Shown here: piece after piece, positions 53 to 5,865 of the stretch
How positions within the stretch are numbered: the first letter of the stretch is position 1
Layout: each line of letters starts with the position of its first letter
Source: Tannerella sp.
Lineage (GTDB): Bacteria > Bacteroidota > Bacteroidia > Bacteroidales > Tannerellaceae
Length of the DNA stretch: 6,152 bases
Direction: 5' to 3'
NCBI GenBank assembly: GCA_031288935.1
Contig: JAITQL010000161.1
Location: 1 to 6,152 of the forward strand
The notes under the pieces: model-generated
Told to the model about the DNA's origin: nothing
Seen by the model: only the letters and a program-made list of their open reading frames with translations
The model's database searches: none
Translations under genes and position numbers: made by a program

Positions 53-1558
53 ATGACAGGTAAAGTATATATCCCCGGTCAAATCCATAAAATCCGGGTG
101 GGTATGAGTCAGATTGTATTGTCTGACACGGAGGCGTTGAAATCAGATGGCACGAAAATTTTCAAGAGCAATAATCCCGTAACGGTGTATGATACGGCCG
201 GACCTTATTCCGATTCGCAACACACACATTCCGTCCGGAAAGGGATTGAGCGCATACGCGGCGAATGGAACGAAAAACGAAAAGATATCGCCCTTTTCAA
301 TCCGCCGTCCGACAAACCGCTCGCGAAAATCGTTTATCCGATACAATCACCCGTTTTCGAGGCAAAGGACGGAAAGCAAATCACCCAGATGTATTACGCC
401 AAGCGCCGCATCATCACGCCGGAAATGGAATACGTCGCCATCCGCGAAAACCAGCAGGTGGAAGCAATGGGATTAAAATCCTATATCACGCCGGACTTTG
501 TGCGGAAAGAAATCGTCTCCGGACGCGCCATCATCCCCTCGAACATCAACCATCCCGAAGTGGAACCGATGATTATCGGACGCCGGTTCCTGGTGAAAAT
601 CAACACGAATATCAACCCCTGCGGCCTGCACGTGGACGAGGAGGTTAAACAGATGATCCGCTGTTGCCGGTGGGGAACGGATACGATGATCGACCTGTCG
701 TCGCAAACGGATTGCCATCTCACGCGCGAATGGCTGATCCGCAACTGTCCGGTGCCGATGGGCACAAGTCCGCTCTACCAGGCGCTGGCCAGGGCCGGAG
801 GGAAACCGGAGCAGTTAAACTGGGAAATCTTCCGCGAGACCTTGATCGAACAAGCCCGGCAGGGAGTAGATTTTATGACCGTCCACGCGGCCATGCGAAG
901 AAAATACCTGCTCATGACAAGCAATCGCCTGGTAAATCTCGTTTCCCGCAGCGGGATTATCCTGAGCGAATGGATGAACGTGCATAAGCAGGAAAATTTC
1001 CTCTACACGCACTTTGACGAAATTTGCGAGATCCTGAAAGCGTACGACGTCGCGCTCTTTTTATGCAGCGGACTGCGTCCCGATGCCATTTACGACGCCA
1101 ACGACCATGCCCATATCAGCGAACTGACGGAGATGCGGCATCTGATTGAAATTGCCCGGGATCAATACGTGCAGACGATTGCCGAAGGCCCCGGACACGT
1201 CCCCCTGCACAAAATCGAAGCCAATACGAAGGAGCACCTGTACATCTGCAAGGGCATACCTTTCTTTACGATGGGGATGAACATCACCGACATTGCCGGT
1301 ATCTACAGCTTTATCGCCTCCGCAATCGGAAGCGCGCAAATCGCATGGCACGGCGCGTCCCTGATCAGCAACGACAGCCTCGCGCTGCTCAACGGCAACG
1401 CGATCCGGGCCAGTATCATTGCACACAAAATCGCCGCTCATGCGGCCGACCTGGCCAAAGGGCATCCCGGAGCGCAGGTACGCGACAACGCGCTCTGCAA
1501 AGCCCGCTGCGAAGGACGGATGAATGATATTCAACAGTTGACGATCGACTTTCACTGA
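53..1558 (+). CDS. thiC: divergent ThiC-family protein (phosphomethylpyrimidine synthase homologue) without the Fe-S motif
   Basis: ThiC normally converts aminoimidazole ribotide to hydroxymethylpyrimidine phosphate in thiamin synthesis, using SAM and a [4Fe-4S] cluster held by a C-terminal CX2CX4C motif. This 501-residue protein is clearly a homologue: ITQMYYAK at 110-117, ITPEMEYVAIREN at 121-133, NINHPEVEPMIIGR at 164-177, EGPGHVP at 378-384 and KIAAHAADLAKGHPGAQ at 459-475. It stops at residue 501, about 60 or more residues short, so CX2CX4C is absent. Of the two metal-ligand histidines, His382 (GPGHVP) remains; the KEHLxLP histidine aligns with Ser442. Substrate-loop signatures differ throughout: NIGNSA becomes NINPCG, DLSTG becomes DLSSQ, GDGLRPG becomes CSGLRPD, and TDIAPGYDH becomes TDIAGIYSF. 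The frame is intact, which argues against a fresh pseudogene. ATG 53 is the first start after the upstream stop and is preceded by a purine-rich stretch. Canonical ThiC activity is unlikely; it may be a pseudoenzyme, a repurposed paralogue or an early decaying copy. Confidence 0.9.
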   Translation: MTGKVYIPGQIHKIRVGMSQIVLSDTEALKSDGTKIFKSNNPVTVYDTAGPYSDSQHTHSVRKGIERIRGEWNEKRKDIALFNPPSDKPLAKIVYPIQSPVFEAKDGKQITQMYYAKRRIITPEMEYVAIRENQQVEAMGLKSYITPDFVRKEIVSGRAIIPSNINHPEVEPMIIGRRFLVKINTNINPCGLHVDEEVKQMIRCCRWGTDTMIDLSSQTDCHLTREWLIRNCPVPMGTSPLYQALARAGGKPEQLNWEIFRETLIEQARQGVDFMTVHAAMRRKYLLMTSNRLVNLVSRSGIILSEWMNVHKQENFLYTHFDEICEILKAYDVALFLCSGLRPDAIYDANDHAHISELTEMRHLIEIARDQYVQTIAEGPGHVPLHKIEANTKEHLYICKGIPFFTMGMNITDIAGIYSFIASAIGSAQIAWHGASLISNDSLALLNGNAIRASIIAHKIAAHAADLAKGHPGAQVRDNALCKARCEGRMNDIQQLTIDFH

Positions 1559-2454: not shown

Positions 2455-2485
2455 CAGAAACAGATAAATGTATAATTGTAGAAAG

Positions 2486-3220
2486 ATGGACAAACCGGCA
2501 TTCAATAAAAACCTGAAGGAAACAGCGGATCCTCCCCGCATGATTCACGGCATCTTCAACTGGTGCGACCGGTGGTGCGAGCGGTGCAGCCACACCCGGC
2601 ACTGTACGGTCTATCAAACCGCGCCTCGCCGGACAAACGGCAACGCGGACGATTTTTGCAAATCGCTTGCCGCACTCTTCGACGCAACAATGGATGTATT
2701 GAAAGAACAAGCCCAAAAAGCAGGCCTGGATTTCAATGCACTGCAAGATATGGATATGGCAAACGATTTAGAAAGAAAGAAGTATGCGGTTCGGAATAAC
2801 AGCTGTCTCCTGCTTGCCAAACAGTATGGAAGACAAGTGAACAAATGGTTCGACGCTTTCGCCGAAAAAGAAGCGGTCGGCATGGAAATACGCTTGCAAG
2901 ACCCGATGTTGTCGGATTGTTTGGAAGTAATCCGGTGGTATCAATACTTTCTCGAAGTAAAAACAGCACGGGCGCTGATGTCGCAAAAAGAGGAAGAAGA
3001 GGAACATTCGACTGCCTGCGACTCGCTCGGAAATGCCAAAGCCGTATTGGTTTCACTTGAGCGAAGCATCGGCGCGTGGGGTTATCTGTTCCAAAAAATC
3101 ACGGAAGACGAAGACCCTGTTTTGGCGATACTTGTTGATTTGCAAAAGTTGTGCAGACAGGTGGAACGGCAGTTTCCCGAAGCAAGGAATTTTATTCGTC
3201 CCGGCCTGGATGAACGGTAA
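2486..3220 (+). CDS. conserved hypothetical protein with N-terminal four-cysteine cluster
   Basis: I cannot assign a function. The product is 244 residues from ATG 2486; an in-frame ATG at 2468 would add six residues, but 2486 fits the proposed promoter better and has an A-rich AGAAAG just before it. Near the N-terminus, IHGIFNWCDRWCERC leads into four cysteines at 27, 31, 34 and 40 (CX3CX2CX5C), with histidines at 21, 36 and 39 nearby: a likely zinc or iron-sulfur site. The rest reads as soluble and mostly helical, with WYQYFLEVKTARALM at about 151-165, a glutamate run at 169-173, and AKAVLVSLERSIGAWGYL at about 184-201. There is no signal peptide or membrane segment. From memory, Bacteroidetes genomes contain uncharacterised proteins with a similar GIFNYCDRWCERC start and an FxxAxxFxRPG-like tail, as here (QFPEARNFIRPG, 229-240). 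It converges on menA with an 80-base gap. Confidence 0.85.
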   Translation: MDKPAFNKNLKETADPPRMIHGIFNWCDRWCERCSHTRHCTVYQTAPRRTNGNADDFCKSLAALFDATMDVLKEQAQKAGLDFNALQDMDMANDLERKKYAVRNNSCLLLAKQYGRQVNKWFDAFAEKEAVGMEIRLQDPMLSDCLEVIRWYQYFLEVKTARALMSQKEEEEEHSTACDSLGNAKAVLVSLERSIGAWGYLFQKITEDEDPVLAILVDLQKLCRQVERQFPEARNFIRPGLDER

Positions 3221-3300: not shown

Positions 3301-4173
3301 TCAACACAGCAGGAGCGATACCAGCAGCGAAGCATACAGAAGCACGTTGCGTGCCGTTTGTTCCAGTGTCCGGTTCAGTTCGCCGCCCCGCAGCCGGAAC
3401 AAATCCTGCCAGGTAAAGATTTGCAGCAGGATGATCATGAAAAACAAAATCCAGCTGTTCCAGTGACGGTAGAGGTAGACCGGAAAAGAGAAAACAACGG
3501 CCAGCAGGATGTTCGCCAGATACAGCACGCGGCCGAAGCGCCGGCCAAACAGGACGACGGTCGTTCGTTTCCCGACCGCCGCATCCTGTTCGCAGTCCCG
3601 GTAATTATTCACCAGCAGGATATTCACCGAAAGCAGTCCCGGGGAAAGCGACAGCCAGAAGGCCGTCATGCTGAAAGCGTGTGCCTGCACGTAGTACGTG
3701 AAGCAAACCGGGACGATCCCGTAAAACACCAGCACGCAGACGTCGCCCCATCCCCGGTAGGCCAGCGGATAGGGGCCGGCCGTGTATGCCAGCACGCAAA
3801 CGACCATCGCCACGCCCACCCCGATCAGCTCCCATCCGGCAAGGAACAGCAGTCCGCACCCGCACAGACAGGCGGCGCCCAGCACGCCCAGCGCCCCGTG
3901 CAGCATCGCTGCCGGGGCAATCCAGCCCGAAGCCACCGCCCGCGCCTGTCCCAAACGTCCCTCCCGGTCGGCGCCTTTTCCGAAGTCGAAATAATCATTT
4001 GCCAGGTTCGCCGCCACCTGCGCCAGCAAGGCAACGCCCAGACACAACACGGCCGGAGCCGGCCGGAACACCCCGTCGCGGAACGCCAGCGCACAGCCGA
4101 CCAGCACCGGACTGACCGATGCCGTCAACGTCTTCGGACGCGCCGCCAGCAACCACGCTTTCCACTTCTTCAT
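3301..4173 (-). CDS. menA: 1,4-dihydroxy-2-naphthoate polyprenyltransferase MenA
   Basis: MenA is an integral membrane enzyme of the UbiA family. It attaches a polyprenyl chain to 1,4-dihydroxy-2-naphthoate, giving demethylmenaquinone, so it serves respiratory quinone synthesis. The 290-residue product has the usual length. It opens with WLLAARPKTLTASVSPVLVG (7-26), characteristic of MenA. The first aspartate motif is NDYFDFGKGAD at 59-69, and the second is NNYRDCEQDAAVGKRT at 189-204; these bind the prenyl diphosphate through magnesium. About eight or nine hydrophobic helices are visible, roughly at 15-33, 40-58, 93-112, 114-133, 143-162, 170-188, 217-235, 240-255 and 274-289. The peptidase gene lies 91 bases upstream on the same strand, so read-through from it is possible. 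No well-spaced promoter is visible: the best -7-like site (4188-4181, AATCTTTG) has TTTG only 16 bases upstream. The leader consists largely of octamer repeats. Confidence 0.95.
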   Translation of the reverse strand: MKKWKAWLLAARPKTLTASVSPVLVGCALAFRDGVFRPAPAVLCLGVALLAQVAANLANDYFDFGKGADREGRLGQARAVASGWIAPAAMLHGALGVLGAACLCGCGLLFLAGWELIGVGVAMVVCVLAYTAGPYPLAYRGWGDVCVLVFYGIVPVCFTYYVQAHAFSMTAFWLSLSPGLLSVNILLVNNYRDCEQDAAVGKRTTVVLFGRRFGRVLYLANILLAVVFSFPVYLYRHWNSWILFFMIILLQIFTWQDLFRLRGGELNRTLEQTARNVLLYASLLVSLLLC

Positions 4174-4264: not shown

Positions 4265-5809
4265 TTACTGATAAAGTCCTTCACGGGAGAGCAGGTGATC
4301 CAGATTGGCCACCCCCAGCCCGATCACCGCCATCACGGTGGCGGCATGTCGCTGGTATTCGGGGATGCTTTTCGTATACAAGTCCCGCTCCGTATGCCAT
4401 ATTTCGCGGTAGTGGAAGTTATAGCCCTTGACGTCGTCTTCATCCAGCGTGATGGCGGGGATGCCCTTGATGGCGAAGACGGAGGCGTCGGTTCCGCTCA
4501 GGCGCGCGGGTTTCGGACGCGGGCCGGTTTCCTTGACTTCAAACGGGATGTCGGGATGGATGGACGACAGCGGCGCGCAGATTTGCACGAAGTCCGCATA
4601 CATGGCCTTCGGCACGCTGATGCTGATCGGCGGCAGGGGGCCTCCGTCGCGGTTGAAAAGGTTTGAAATCCTGTCCCAGTGTTCGGGATGCGACGCCGCC
4701 CAGGCCTGTGCGCCCAGCAGTCCGTATTCCTCGCCGGCAAAGGCAATGAACAGCATGCTGCGTTTCGGCCGGATGCCCGACCGGGCAACCAGGCGGGCTG
4801 CCTCGATGACGGACGTAACGCCCGACCCGCAGTCCACGCCGCCGGTGGCCGCATCGTGCGAGTCCAGGTGACCGCTCAGCATGACGTATTCGTCCGGATA
4901 ATCGCTCCCCCGGATTTTCCCGGCCACGCTGTAATATTTCACCGGCCCCATCTTGAAATGGTTGCGGATGTCAAATTCCAGCTCGAACACGCGCCGTTCC
5001 AGCACCATCTGCCTGACGGTTTCAAACTGGTGTTCGTCCAGCTTGATGTCCGGCGTGACGGGCAGCCGGTCGAACGTCATGGTCGAGTCCTTGACGACGC
5101 TCTGGTCATACAGCGCCACCAGCGGCACGGGCGCCGACTGGATGATTCCCAAAATGCCCGCTTCGCGCATTTCCCGGTAAAACAGCGCCGGCTCGTCGAG
5201 CAGCGTCAGCAGGGTATCGTTTTTGTGCTTCAGGCGATTGTTTTCGGCAATCGCCTGATTCTTCCCGCGAATTTCGACGTTTCGGGCAATGATGTCCGCA
5301 CGGGCAGAATCGGCGCGGGCGGAATGCTGAATCGCCCATCCGACGCTCCGGCCGGTGACCAGTACCCACGCACCTTTCAGGGCGCCCCTGATGCGCTCGA
5401 AATCTTCGCGCGTCTTGGGTTCGAGCAACACCGGGCCGCGTTGCAATCCCTTCGTTCCGGAAGAATAGGACGGCGTAACGAAATGCAGCGCCATGGCCTG
5501 GTCGCCGCCCAGCATCCTTCCGAACCACGGGCCGCGGTTGAATCCTACCGGCAACGTCCCGCCCTCATTCAATTCCACTTCCAGTCCCCATTCGCTGAAC
5601 TTGGACGCCACCCAGTCCACGGCGTTGTCATACGCATCCGACCCGATCGGCCGCCCGCCAAACCGGTTTGTAAGGACATCCAGGTGATCCATCACCTGAT
5701 TGTCCGTTTTCCCCATCTCAATCAGTCTCTCGACGCCTGCATGCTGTGCCGAAGCAGTCGCCACCGTCATACAGATCCCTGCGACGTACATCAATACTAT
5801 CTTCTTCAT
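4265..5809 (-). CDS. secreted M28 family zinc metallopeptidase with PA-like insert
   Basis: This is a two-zinc exopeptidase of family M28 (aminopeptidase or carboxypeptidase Q-like), acting outside the cytoplasm. I start it at ATG 5807-5809, giving 514 residues; an in-frame TTG at 5834-5836 lies inside the predicted -7 box. Residues 1-21 form a signal peptide (KK, hydrophobic core, ATASA then Gln22). Residues about 120-250 fit a protease-associated-type insert, including a charged RADSARADIIARN helix. The catalytic domain runs from about 290 to 505. Likely ligands by family pattern: His314 (SGHLDSH), bridging Asp326 (GVDCGSG), Glu360/Glu361 (AGEEYG, catalytic base and zinc ligand), Asp388 (NRDGG) and His472 (WHTERD). 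The residue after the bridging Asp is Cys327, where Asp or Asn is more usual. All ligands are present, so it should be active. Substrate preference cannot be read. menA follows 91 bases downstream on the same strand. Confidence 0.92.
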   Translation of the reverse strand: MKKIVLMYVAGICMTVATASAQHAGVERLIEMGKTDNQVMDHLDVLTNRFGGRPIGSDAYDNAVDWVASKFSEWGLEVELNEGGTLPVGFNRGPWFGRMLGGDQAMALHFVTPSYSSGTKGLQRGPVLLEPKTREDFERIRGALKGAWVLVTGRSVGWAIQHSARADSARADIIARNVEIRGKNQAIAENNRLKHKNDTLLTLLDEPALFYREMREAGILGIIQSAPVPLVALYDQSVVKDSTMTFDRLPVTPDIKLDEHQFETVRQMVLERRVFELEFDIRNHFKMGPVKYYSVAGKIRGSDYPDEYVMLSGHLDSHDAATGGVDCGSGVTSVIEAARLVARSGIRPKRSMLFIAFAGEEYGLLGAQAWAASHPEHWDRISNLFNRDGGPLPPISISVPKAMYADFVQICAPLSSIHPDIPFEVKETGPRPKPARLSGTDASVFAIKGIPAITLDEDDVKGYNFHYREIWHTERDLYTKSIPEYQRHAATVMAVIGLGVANLDHLLSREGLYQ

Positions 5810-5833
5810 CTTTTTAATTTTTAATTCGGGGGG

Positions 5834-5865
5834 CAAATATATTCAAAAAAAACCGGTTCTGCGAA
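5834..5865 (-). promoter_or_regulatory. predicted Bacteroidetes-type promoter of the M28 peptidase gene
   Basis: On the minus strand 5841-5834 reads TATATTTG, a perfect TAnnTTTG -7 box. Twenty bases upstream, 5865-5862 is TTCG, a three-of-four match to TTTG. Transcription would start near 5827, leaving a leader of about 18 bases before ATG 5809. That leader contains two AATTAAAAA units, the A-rich type of ribosome site common in this phylum. This placement rules out the TTG at 5834-5836 as the start. Confidence 0.5.

Follow-up and report, generated by a model that had tools for sequence, protein, structure and literature searches.

The locus and its protein

The window analysed here (the whole stretch of DNA studied, 6,152 nucleotides from Tannerella sp., contig JAITQL010000161.1) carries near its start a gene for a paralogue of ThiC, an enzyme of thiamin (vitamin B1) synthesis, that lacks the cysteines of the Fe-S cluster motif. 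The gene and its two domains are as follows.

53..1558, plus strand: coding sequence of the cysteine-less (Cys-less) ThiC paralogue, 501 amino acids (aa), stop codon TGA at 1556-1558 (open reading frame (ORF) scan, Pfam and NCBIfam profiles, protein search)
59..289, plus strand: ThiC-associated N-terminal domain PF13667, residues 3-79 (Pfam)
383..1549, plus strand: ThiC_Rad_SAM domain PF01964, residues 111-499, without the C-terminal cluster part (Pfam and alignment)

The frame is open through 501 codons according to the ORF scan, and ATG 53 is its earliest start because an in-frame TAA at 47-49 forms the second codon ahead of it. The protein has the ThiC fold and both domains (ThiC-associated, 79.9 bits; ThiC_Rad_SAM, 383.5 bits over residues 111-499), and it falls below all three NCBIfam equivalog cut-offs for ThiC (608.2 against 650, 419.9 against 460 and 359.6 against 410). 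A motif scan of the whole window protein found no CX2CX4C, the C-terminal motif that binds the [4Fe-4S] cluster in ThiC. These results agree with a sequence-only reading of the same DNA, which had reported an intact 501-codon frame without the CX2CX4C tail. Based on the alignment and a paper on the ThiC structure, the protein ends close to the start of the tether that leads to the cluster-binding loop. A convergent maf ORF ends at 1583, and because only 24 bases separate the two stop codons there is no room for a hidden remnant of the tail. A frameshift or truncation artefact was rejected, as 30 listed proteins (the window's own among them) from many contigs end without the motif.

Selective losses in the active site

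The roles of residues discussed here are taken from structures and mutants of Arabidopsis (At) and Caulobacter (Cc) ThiC, as given in two papers (PMC4389238, PMC11117688). Compared with ThiC, the window protein has NINPC- for NIGNSA, DLSSQ for DLSTG, MTVHAA for FTIHAG, SRSGI for SRGGS, CSGLRPD for GDGLRPG and DIAGIYSF for DIAPGYDH, as well as a gap of four residues at Cc 482-485. The alignment thus reproduces the altered loops and the missing residues that had been named from the sequence. It also bears out the proposed concentration of changes at the active site: among residues invariant in canonical ThiC, the window protein keeps 16/40 in those loops and 120/158 elsewhere (Fisher p = 3.6e-5). 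The catalytic residues Asp374 and Cys474 (Cc) are replaced by Ser339 and Ser439. Of the two metal histidines (Cc417 and Cc481), the first is intact (His382) and the second is lost, as had been proposed; the counterpart of His481 is Ser442, the residue named earlier, in one alignment and Leu446 in another. All six residues contacting the ribose or phosphate of 5-aminoimidazole ribotide (AIR) are intact (Asn186, Tyr242, His278, Ser298, Arg342 and Glu378). With these contacts and His382 kept, the description of the active site as dismantled holds only for the half that serves S-adenosylmethionine (SAM) and radical chemistry.

Counts among relatives refer to 56 rows of the Cys-less clade described below, 40 of them from the window's own genus (12 being proteins without a genome handle, placed in the genus by tree position) and 16 from other genera. 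Left out were L107 and P0055, which are of full length with a damaged motif, and L090, which is cut by a contig end. The positions concerned are the following.

608..610, plus strand: codon of Asn186, corresponding to Cc Asn219 / At Asn228 (AIR 3'-OH), kept in 29/40 own-genus rows
776..778, plus strand: codon of Tyr242, corresponding to At Tyr286 (AIR phosphate), kept in 36/40 own-genus rows
884..886, plus strand: codon of His278, corresponding to At His322 (AIR phosphate), kept in 39/40 own-genus rows
944..946, plus strand: codon of Ser298, corresponding to At Ser342 (AIR phosphate), kept in 40/40 own-genus rows
1067..1069, plus strand: codon of Ser339, in place of the catalytic acid Asp (Cc374 / At383); Ser in 29, Cys in 10 and Asn in 1 of 40 own-genus rows
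1076..1078, plus strand: codon of Arg342, corresponding to At Arg386 (AIR phosphate and SAM carboxylate), kept in 40/40 own-genus rows
1184..1186, plus strand: codon of Glu378, corresponding to Cc Glu413 / At Glu422 (AIR 2'-OH), kept in 40/40 own-genus rows
1196..1198, plus strand: codon of His382, first metal histidine (Cc417 / At426), kept in 40/40 own-genus rows
1367..1390, plus strand: residues 439-446, rebuilt and shortened, where ThiC has CYVTPKEHLxLP (Cys474, Glu480 and His481 all lost; alignment)
1424..1522, plus strand: residues 458-490, a conserved C-terminal helical stretch (alignment), probably part of the three-helix bundle at the ThiC dimer interface

CX2CX4C is missing in 56/56 clade rows. 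Within the own genus, Asp374 and Gly221 are kept in none of the 40 rows, Cys474 and His481 in one each, Glu480 in eight, Arg334 in 19 and Leu250 in 23. We analysed retention at 198 columns invariant in canonical ThiC, of which 182 served as background. In the own genus, the ribose/phosphate set is retained at a mean of 0.93, compared with 0.23 in the SAM/metal/chemistry set and 0.71 across the 182 other columns (resampling p for the SAM/metal/chemistry loss, 0.00015). Mean entropy in the own genus is 0.32 bits at ribose/phosphate positions, 0.75 at base-side and chemistry positions and 2.48 at SAM/metal-only positions, with a median of 0.90. The losses in the own genus are therefore selective: the SAM/radical half is largely gone and the ribose-phosphate half is retained, a selectivity that the sequence-only reading overlooked. 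As would be expected of a ribotide-binding pseudoenzyme, residues that contact the ligand in ThiC are kept under constraint (0.93 in the own genus, 0.66 in other genera).

On the base side of the pocket, positions have been re-fixed to few residues in the own genus and are not drifting: Ser or Cys at Cc374, Phe at Cc440 and Ser or Gly at Cc474, each in 39/40 rows. Together with the invariance of His417 and Glu413 (40/40 own-genus rows), this speaks for a new non-radical enzyme in which the ribotide site has been rebuilt, with His382, His278 and Glu378 as catalytic residues alongside new polar residues on the base side. We consider such an enzyme rather unlikely, given that the six newly fixed positions carry Phe, Phe, Ala, Ala, Ser and Leu, with no new conserved acid or base among them in own-genus rows, and that no operon partner in the genus suggests a pathway.

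A clade of relatives under purifying selection

Among the best 120 of 8000 scored candidates of a protein search, 30 are short proteins without the motif (P0001-P0029 and P0033, the window protein included), with lengths of 487-522 aa and identities of 60-100%. P0055 and P0056 are of full length with a damaged motif, and the remaining 88 carry CX2CX4C, at 56-60% identity to the window protein. Close relatives are labelled Tannerella sp., Parabacteroides sp. or Tannerellaceae in names and record titles, and we take these Tannerella bins, from the style of their isolate names, to come from termite guts. Further genera of the family also yield Cys-less loci. Of six further Cys-less proteins scanned against the equivalog profiles, five fall below all three cut-offs and L070 lies above two of the three; three of three canonical ThiC controls and L107 are above all three.

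In a first tree of 94 rows, 59 of them motif-less (L063, L067 and L071 were dropped as fragments or repeats), 56/59 motif-less rows group in a single clade inside the bacterial family of the window (Shimodaira-Hasegawa-like approximate likelihood ratio test (SH-aLRT), 99). Outside it stand the full-length L107 and P0055 and the contig-cut L090. A second tree was built under a mixture model with the tail columns removed and with 23/56 Cys-less and four canonical rows dropped. All 33 Cys-less rows used again form a clade (100/98), with L107 as its sister (90/93). Relatives sharing the losses, which the sequence-only reading had proposed to look for, thus exist and group together. The clade is nested in a ThiC branch shared with Parabacteroides proteins, and the thiamin-operon ThiC of the window's genus lies on a separate branch (100/99), which points to an origin from an older second ThiC lineage.

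Several full-length relatives show damage to the motif. L107 (L107:6367-8061), the sole ThiC match in genome G090 (99% complete), has all three cluster cysteines replaced, Asp374 changed to Ser and His481 to Gln. The motif bears substitutions in L161, from Parabacteroides sp. isolate RGIG7277, and a two-residue deletion in P0055/P0056, P0055 being placed near the clade root. In the Cys-less L070 the tail and Cys474 are gone, and Asp374 and His481 are retained. The order drawn from these few rows (L107, P0055, L161 and L070) suggests that the cluster may have been lost early and the pocket changed later.

A further set of 80 loci has the motif in 74; those without it are three Tannerella sp. 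loci, L141, L142 and L161, the last three of which are in neither tree. L141 (NZ_JARXXA010000024.1, Parabacteroides sp. PH5-46), whose record is not marked as a metagenome-assembled genome, is a truncated Cys-less ThiC and the only ThiC match in a genome with thiamin pyrophosphokinase (TPK) and no thiE match; this is a possible strain for genetics. An order-wide search of 393 genomes gave a match in 124, in which frame lengths were compared and cysteine motifs not read. Outside the family, matches above 440 bits have frames of at least 536 aa; the one exception, of 516 aa, begins at query residue 104. Weaker matches represent fragments or shorter types of ThiC. Beyond ThiC, a fold search returned only general TIM barrels, such as dihydropteroate synthase, with no functional hint.

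We calculated pairwise ratios of nonsynonymous to synonymous divergence (dN/dS, Nei-Gojobori) in nine hand-chosen Cys-less sets, taking pairs with dS < 2.5 as usable; the sets do not include the Cys-less rows L043, L045, L077, L079, L082 and L093. For all 80 usable of 88 pairs, spanning eight of the nine sets, dN/dS is 0.055-0.235, which indicates purifying selection on the gene; the other 8/88 pairs are saturated, including all three of set g36, which has no usable pair. The median is 0.158 in the window's set of eight and 0.092 for canonical ThiC of the genus (33/45 pairs), so that selection in the window's set is somewhat weaker than on canonical ThiC. There are no internal stops in any of the genome matches listed. 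The signs of a pseudogene, namely relaxed selection with dN/dS near 1 and damage to the frame, are thus lacking. A decaying thiC copy left open by chance could account for scores below the ThiC cut-offs, for the scattered losses and for absence from 13/41 genomes of the genus, but it is contradicted by dN/dS values far below 1, by the absence of internal stops and by a genomic location conserved in 25/28 genus genomes. We regard it as highly improbable, in line with the argument made from the sequence that random decay would have left a different pattern.

Distribution, thiamin genes and gene neighbourhood

The Cys-less copy is present in 28/41 genomes of the window's genus and absent from 13/41. 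Eight genus genomes hold both ThiC forms, which, together with the conserved dimer-bundle stretch, would fit a regulatory or stabilising partner of canonical ThiC. We think this role improbable, since it is contradicted by the lack of a canonical copy in 20/28 genus genomes with the Cys-less protein, including G013, G015 and G026 (99% complete). Likewise, G094 and G096, of another genus and also 99% complete, have the Cys-less protein and no canonical copy.

Thiamin salvage was judged from gene content, that is from matches to thiE, thiG, TPK and ThiC. The sequence-only reading had raised the matter of a second, canonical thiC and the rest of the thi operon in the own genome. This genome, only 55.66% complete, has TPK and, on the TPK contig, a thiamin pyrophosphate (TPP) riboswitch; neither a further ThiC nor thiE was matched in it, and thiG-like matches were partial, at 28.2 and 28.6 bits. 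The same gene content is repeated in G013, G015 and G026 at 99% completeness. TPK occurs in 14/41 genus genomes. The Cys-less protein is found in 10 of these 14 (own genome included) and in 18/27 without TPK. None of the 14 TPK genomes has a full-length thiE or thiG match; in some, thiG-like matches are partial and reach at most 35.5 bits, several of them above the Pfam cut-off of 23, and two show thiE-like matches of about 20 bits. Among 19 further genomes, two of which hold full-length damaged-motif forms rather than Cys-less ones, ten have no thiE match and all ten have TPK. From the gene content of TPK genomes without a thiE match, it appears that the protein is retained where uptake seems to be the only source of thiamin. 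Since 18/30 of the listed motif-less short proteins carry the name phosphomethylpyrimidine synthase in some source, such genomes could be mistaken for thiamin producers. Control of the Cys-less gene by a TPP riboswitch was considered and rejected, with no match on the contigs of Cys-less genes under strict filters; the window's contig starts 52 bases upstream of the gene.

Seven thi operons (L108-L113 and L115) have the order thiD-thiE-thiE-thiG-thiH, with thiC missing between thiG and thiH; they lie in genus genomes G033, G034, G035, G022, G061, G009 and G016. Five of these (G022, G033, G034, G035 and G061) have the Cys-less copy, and neither form was found in G009 and G016. The content of these operons resembles a type described for auxotrophs of hydroxymethylpyrimidine (HMP) in PMC6593275. 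In some genus genomes (L056, L095, L116 and L117), the two ThiE/TenI-like genes of the thi operon are apparently fused in one frame of 405-444 aa.

These operons bear on the possibility that HMP phosphate (HMP-P) is still made with a borrowed cluster, which either another protein or, in a mixed dimer, canonical ThiC would provide in trans. The cluster domain of ThiC is swapped between protomers according to PMC4389238 and PMC11117688, five genomes combine a thiC-less operon with the Cys-less copy, and rows from other genera partly keep Asp374 (7/16) or Cys474 (4/16). Against this, the same sources report that no HMP-P was detected with AtThiC Asp383Ala and that CcThiC Cys474Ser traps an intermediate. 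The window protein has neither residue, Asp374 being missing in 40/40 and Cys474 in 39/40 own-genus rows, and in ten genus genomes that encode the protein there is neither a full-length thiE nor a full-length thiG through which HMP-P could be used. In G009 and G016, where the operon likewise lacks thiC, a Cys-less copy was not found, so that HMP uptake is the simpler account there. Supply of the cluster in trans is hence very unlikely.

In 25/28 genus genomes, the gene lies divergent from a DUF4290-murA-rimM-M23-dxr-rseP housekeeping cluster, away from thiamin genes; the cluster names were checked by Pfam on one copy, murA only as the EPSP_synthase family and rseP as peptidase M50. The exceptions are the window and G010, where the contig ends there, and G028, which has other neighbours. 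Among 13 DUF4290 loci from 12 genus genomes without the Cys-less copy, a thioredoxin-like gene directly precedes DUF4290 in nine, and tblastn found no remnant of a ThiC gene in the 13 (two chance-level matches). In one genus subgroup, the Cys-less gene sits between the thioredoxin-like gene and DUF4290, in the opposite sense. This looks like a single insertion in the genus, or presence followed by loss. The neighbourhood analysis found no operon partner pointing to a pathway in the genus.

In three other genera, a patatin-DUF6363 gene is convergent with the Cys-less gene and touches or overlaps it (L074, L076, L077, L079, L080, L084 and L086), and in a fourth (g28) a GDSL esterase gene lies just downstream (L068 and L072). 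These look like inherited locations rather than operons. Elsewhere in the window, a 250-aa ORF without Pfam or NCBIfam match occupies 2468-3220, between maf and menA, and the minus strand carries genes for a menA-like prenyltransferase (3301-4173) and an M28 peptidase (4265-5836), identified by Pfam and NCBIfam; neither of the latter two adjoins the Cys-less gene in the relatives' loci examined.

Interpretation

We propose, at a probability of roughly 0.55 and from sequence comparisons, that the window encodes a radical-free ThiC paralogue, predicted to be homodimeric, which likely binds AIR or another ribotide and acts outside thiamin synthesis. An ancestral ThiC would have lost the cysteine motif and most residues for SAM, metal and radical chemistry, with the ribose- and phosphate-contacting residues retained under purifying selection. 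The pocket may still accept a ribose-5-phosphate ligand, and the C-terminal dimer bundle may still be functional. Lacking the cluster motif, Asp374 and Cys474, the protein would be unable to cleave SAM or to make HMP-P. Because the ribose-phosphate half is selectively held, a ribotide is the most economical ligand to infer, and AIR, as the ancestral ligand, is the natural candidate. A new radical-free role is likely, given strong selection even where key vitamin B1 genes were not found. We lean modestly towards binding or sensing over a new enzyme. It is a tentative further suggestion, which we hold at slightly under even chances, that in this family the enzyme behind one of the most complex known radical rearrangements, stripped of its Fe-S domain and SAM site but with the ribotide site kept, has become a radical-free protein for sensing or converting a ribotide of the purine pathway, apart from vitamin B1 synthesis.

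Several observations weigh against this interpretation. The excess retention of the ribose/phosphate set is borderline (resampling p = 0.05). Rows from other genera (16) show a weaker contrast (ribose/phosphate, 0.66; SAM/metal/chemistry, 0.36; background, 0.71), and Asp374 is still present in 7/16, Cys474 in 4/16 and His481 in 4/16; a single ligand for the whole clade is thus not assured. Neither ThiC form was found in 9/41 genus genomes, so that the protein is dispensable in some genomes. Five of the 19 further genomes have thiE and TPK together, and several genomes are incomplete, which makes missing thi genes there soft evidence. According to PMC4389238 and PMC11117688, AtThiC is partly rescued when Asn takes the place of the acid Asp, and CcThiC lacking one of the metal histidines is only five-fold less active. 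Single losses are therefore no proof of death, and it is the missing cluster motif that carries the argument. Finally, a model built on a ThiC alignment would resemble ThiC regardless of function.

If a radical-free paralogue is indeed at hand, this would be, to our knowledge, the first demonstrated case of a ThiC lineage that does without the Fe-S cluster, and it points to the half of the active site in a radical SAM enzyme that may be functional by itself. AIR is the point at which purine and thiamin synthesis part, as stated in PMC4389238 and PMC11117688, and AIR binding would for this reason bear on how AIR is shared in cells. Searches of the open-licence literature, mostly at title and abstract level, gave no description of a cysteine-less ThiC or a ThiC pseudoenzyme. 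New here are the Cys-less clade, the selection on it and the half-site pattern.

Comparison with known systems

The window protein shares with ThiC (TIGR00190, NF006763; PDB 3EPN and 4S28) the fold, the ThiC-associated domain, the ribose/phosphate contacts, the first metal histidine and the C-terminal helical stretch. It differs from ThiC in the absence of the CX2CX4C tail, the second metal histidine, Asp374 and Cys474, in its altered SAM contacts, in scores below the equivalog cut-offs and in a location outside a thi operon. The hydroxybenzimidazole synthases BzaA, BzaB and BzaF are likewise ThiC paralogues of changed function. They retain the cysteine motif and use radical chemistry, whereas the window protein lacks CX2CX4C and scores 258.5 bits against a cut-off of 700 with the BzaB model (TIGR04386), which contradicts a Bza paralogue and agrees with the distinction drawn in the sequence-only reading.

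Closer are the full-length ThiC proteins with a damaged motif (L107, P0055/P0056 and L161), which have also lost one or more cluster cysteines; L107, sister to the Cys-less clade (90/93), like the window protein lacks Asp374 and His481. Unlike the window protein, all of these keep the C-terminal tail region, and they look like earlier stages of a similar path. The clade, its dN/dS and the BzaB score support the earlier proposal of a pseudoenzyme or a paralogue with new chemistry without choosing between the two. In pseudoenzymes with a kept substrate site, catalytic residues are lost and the ligand site is held.
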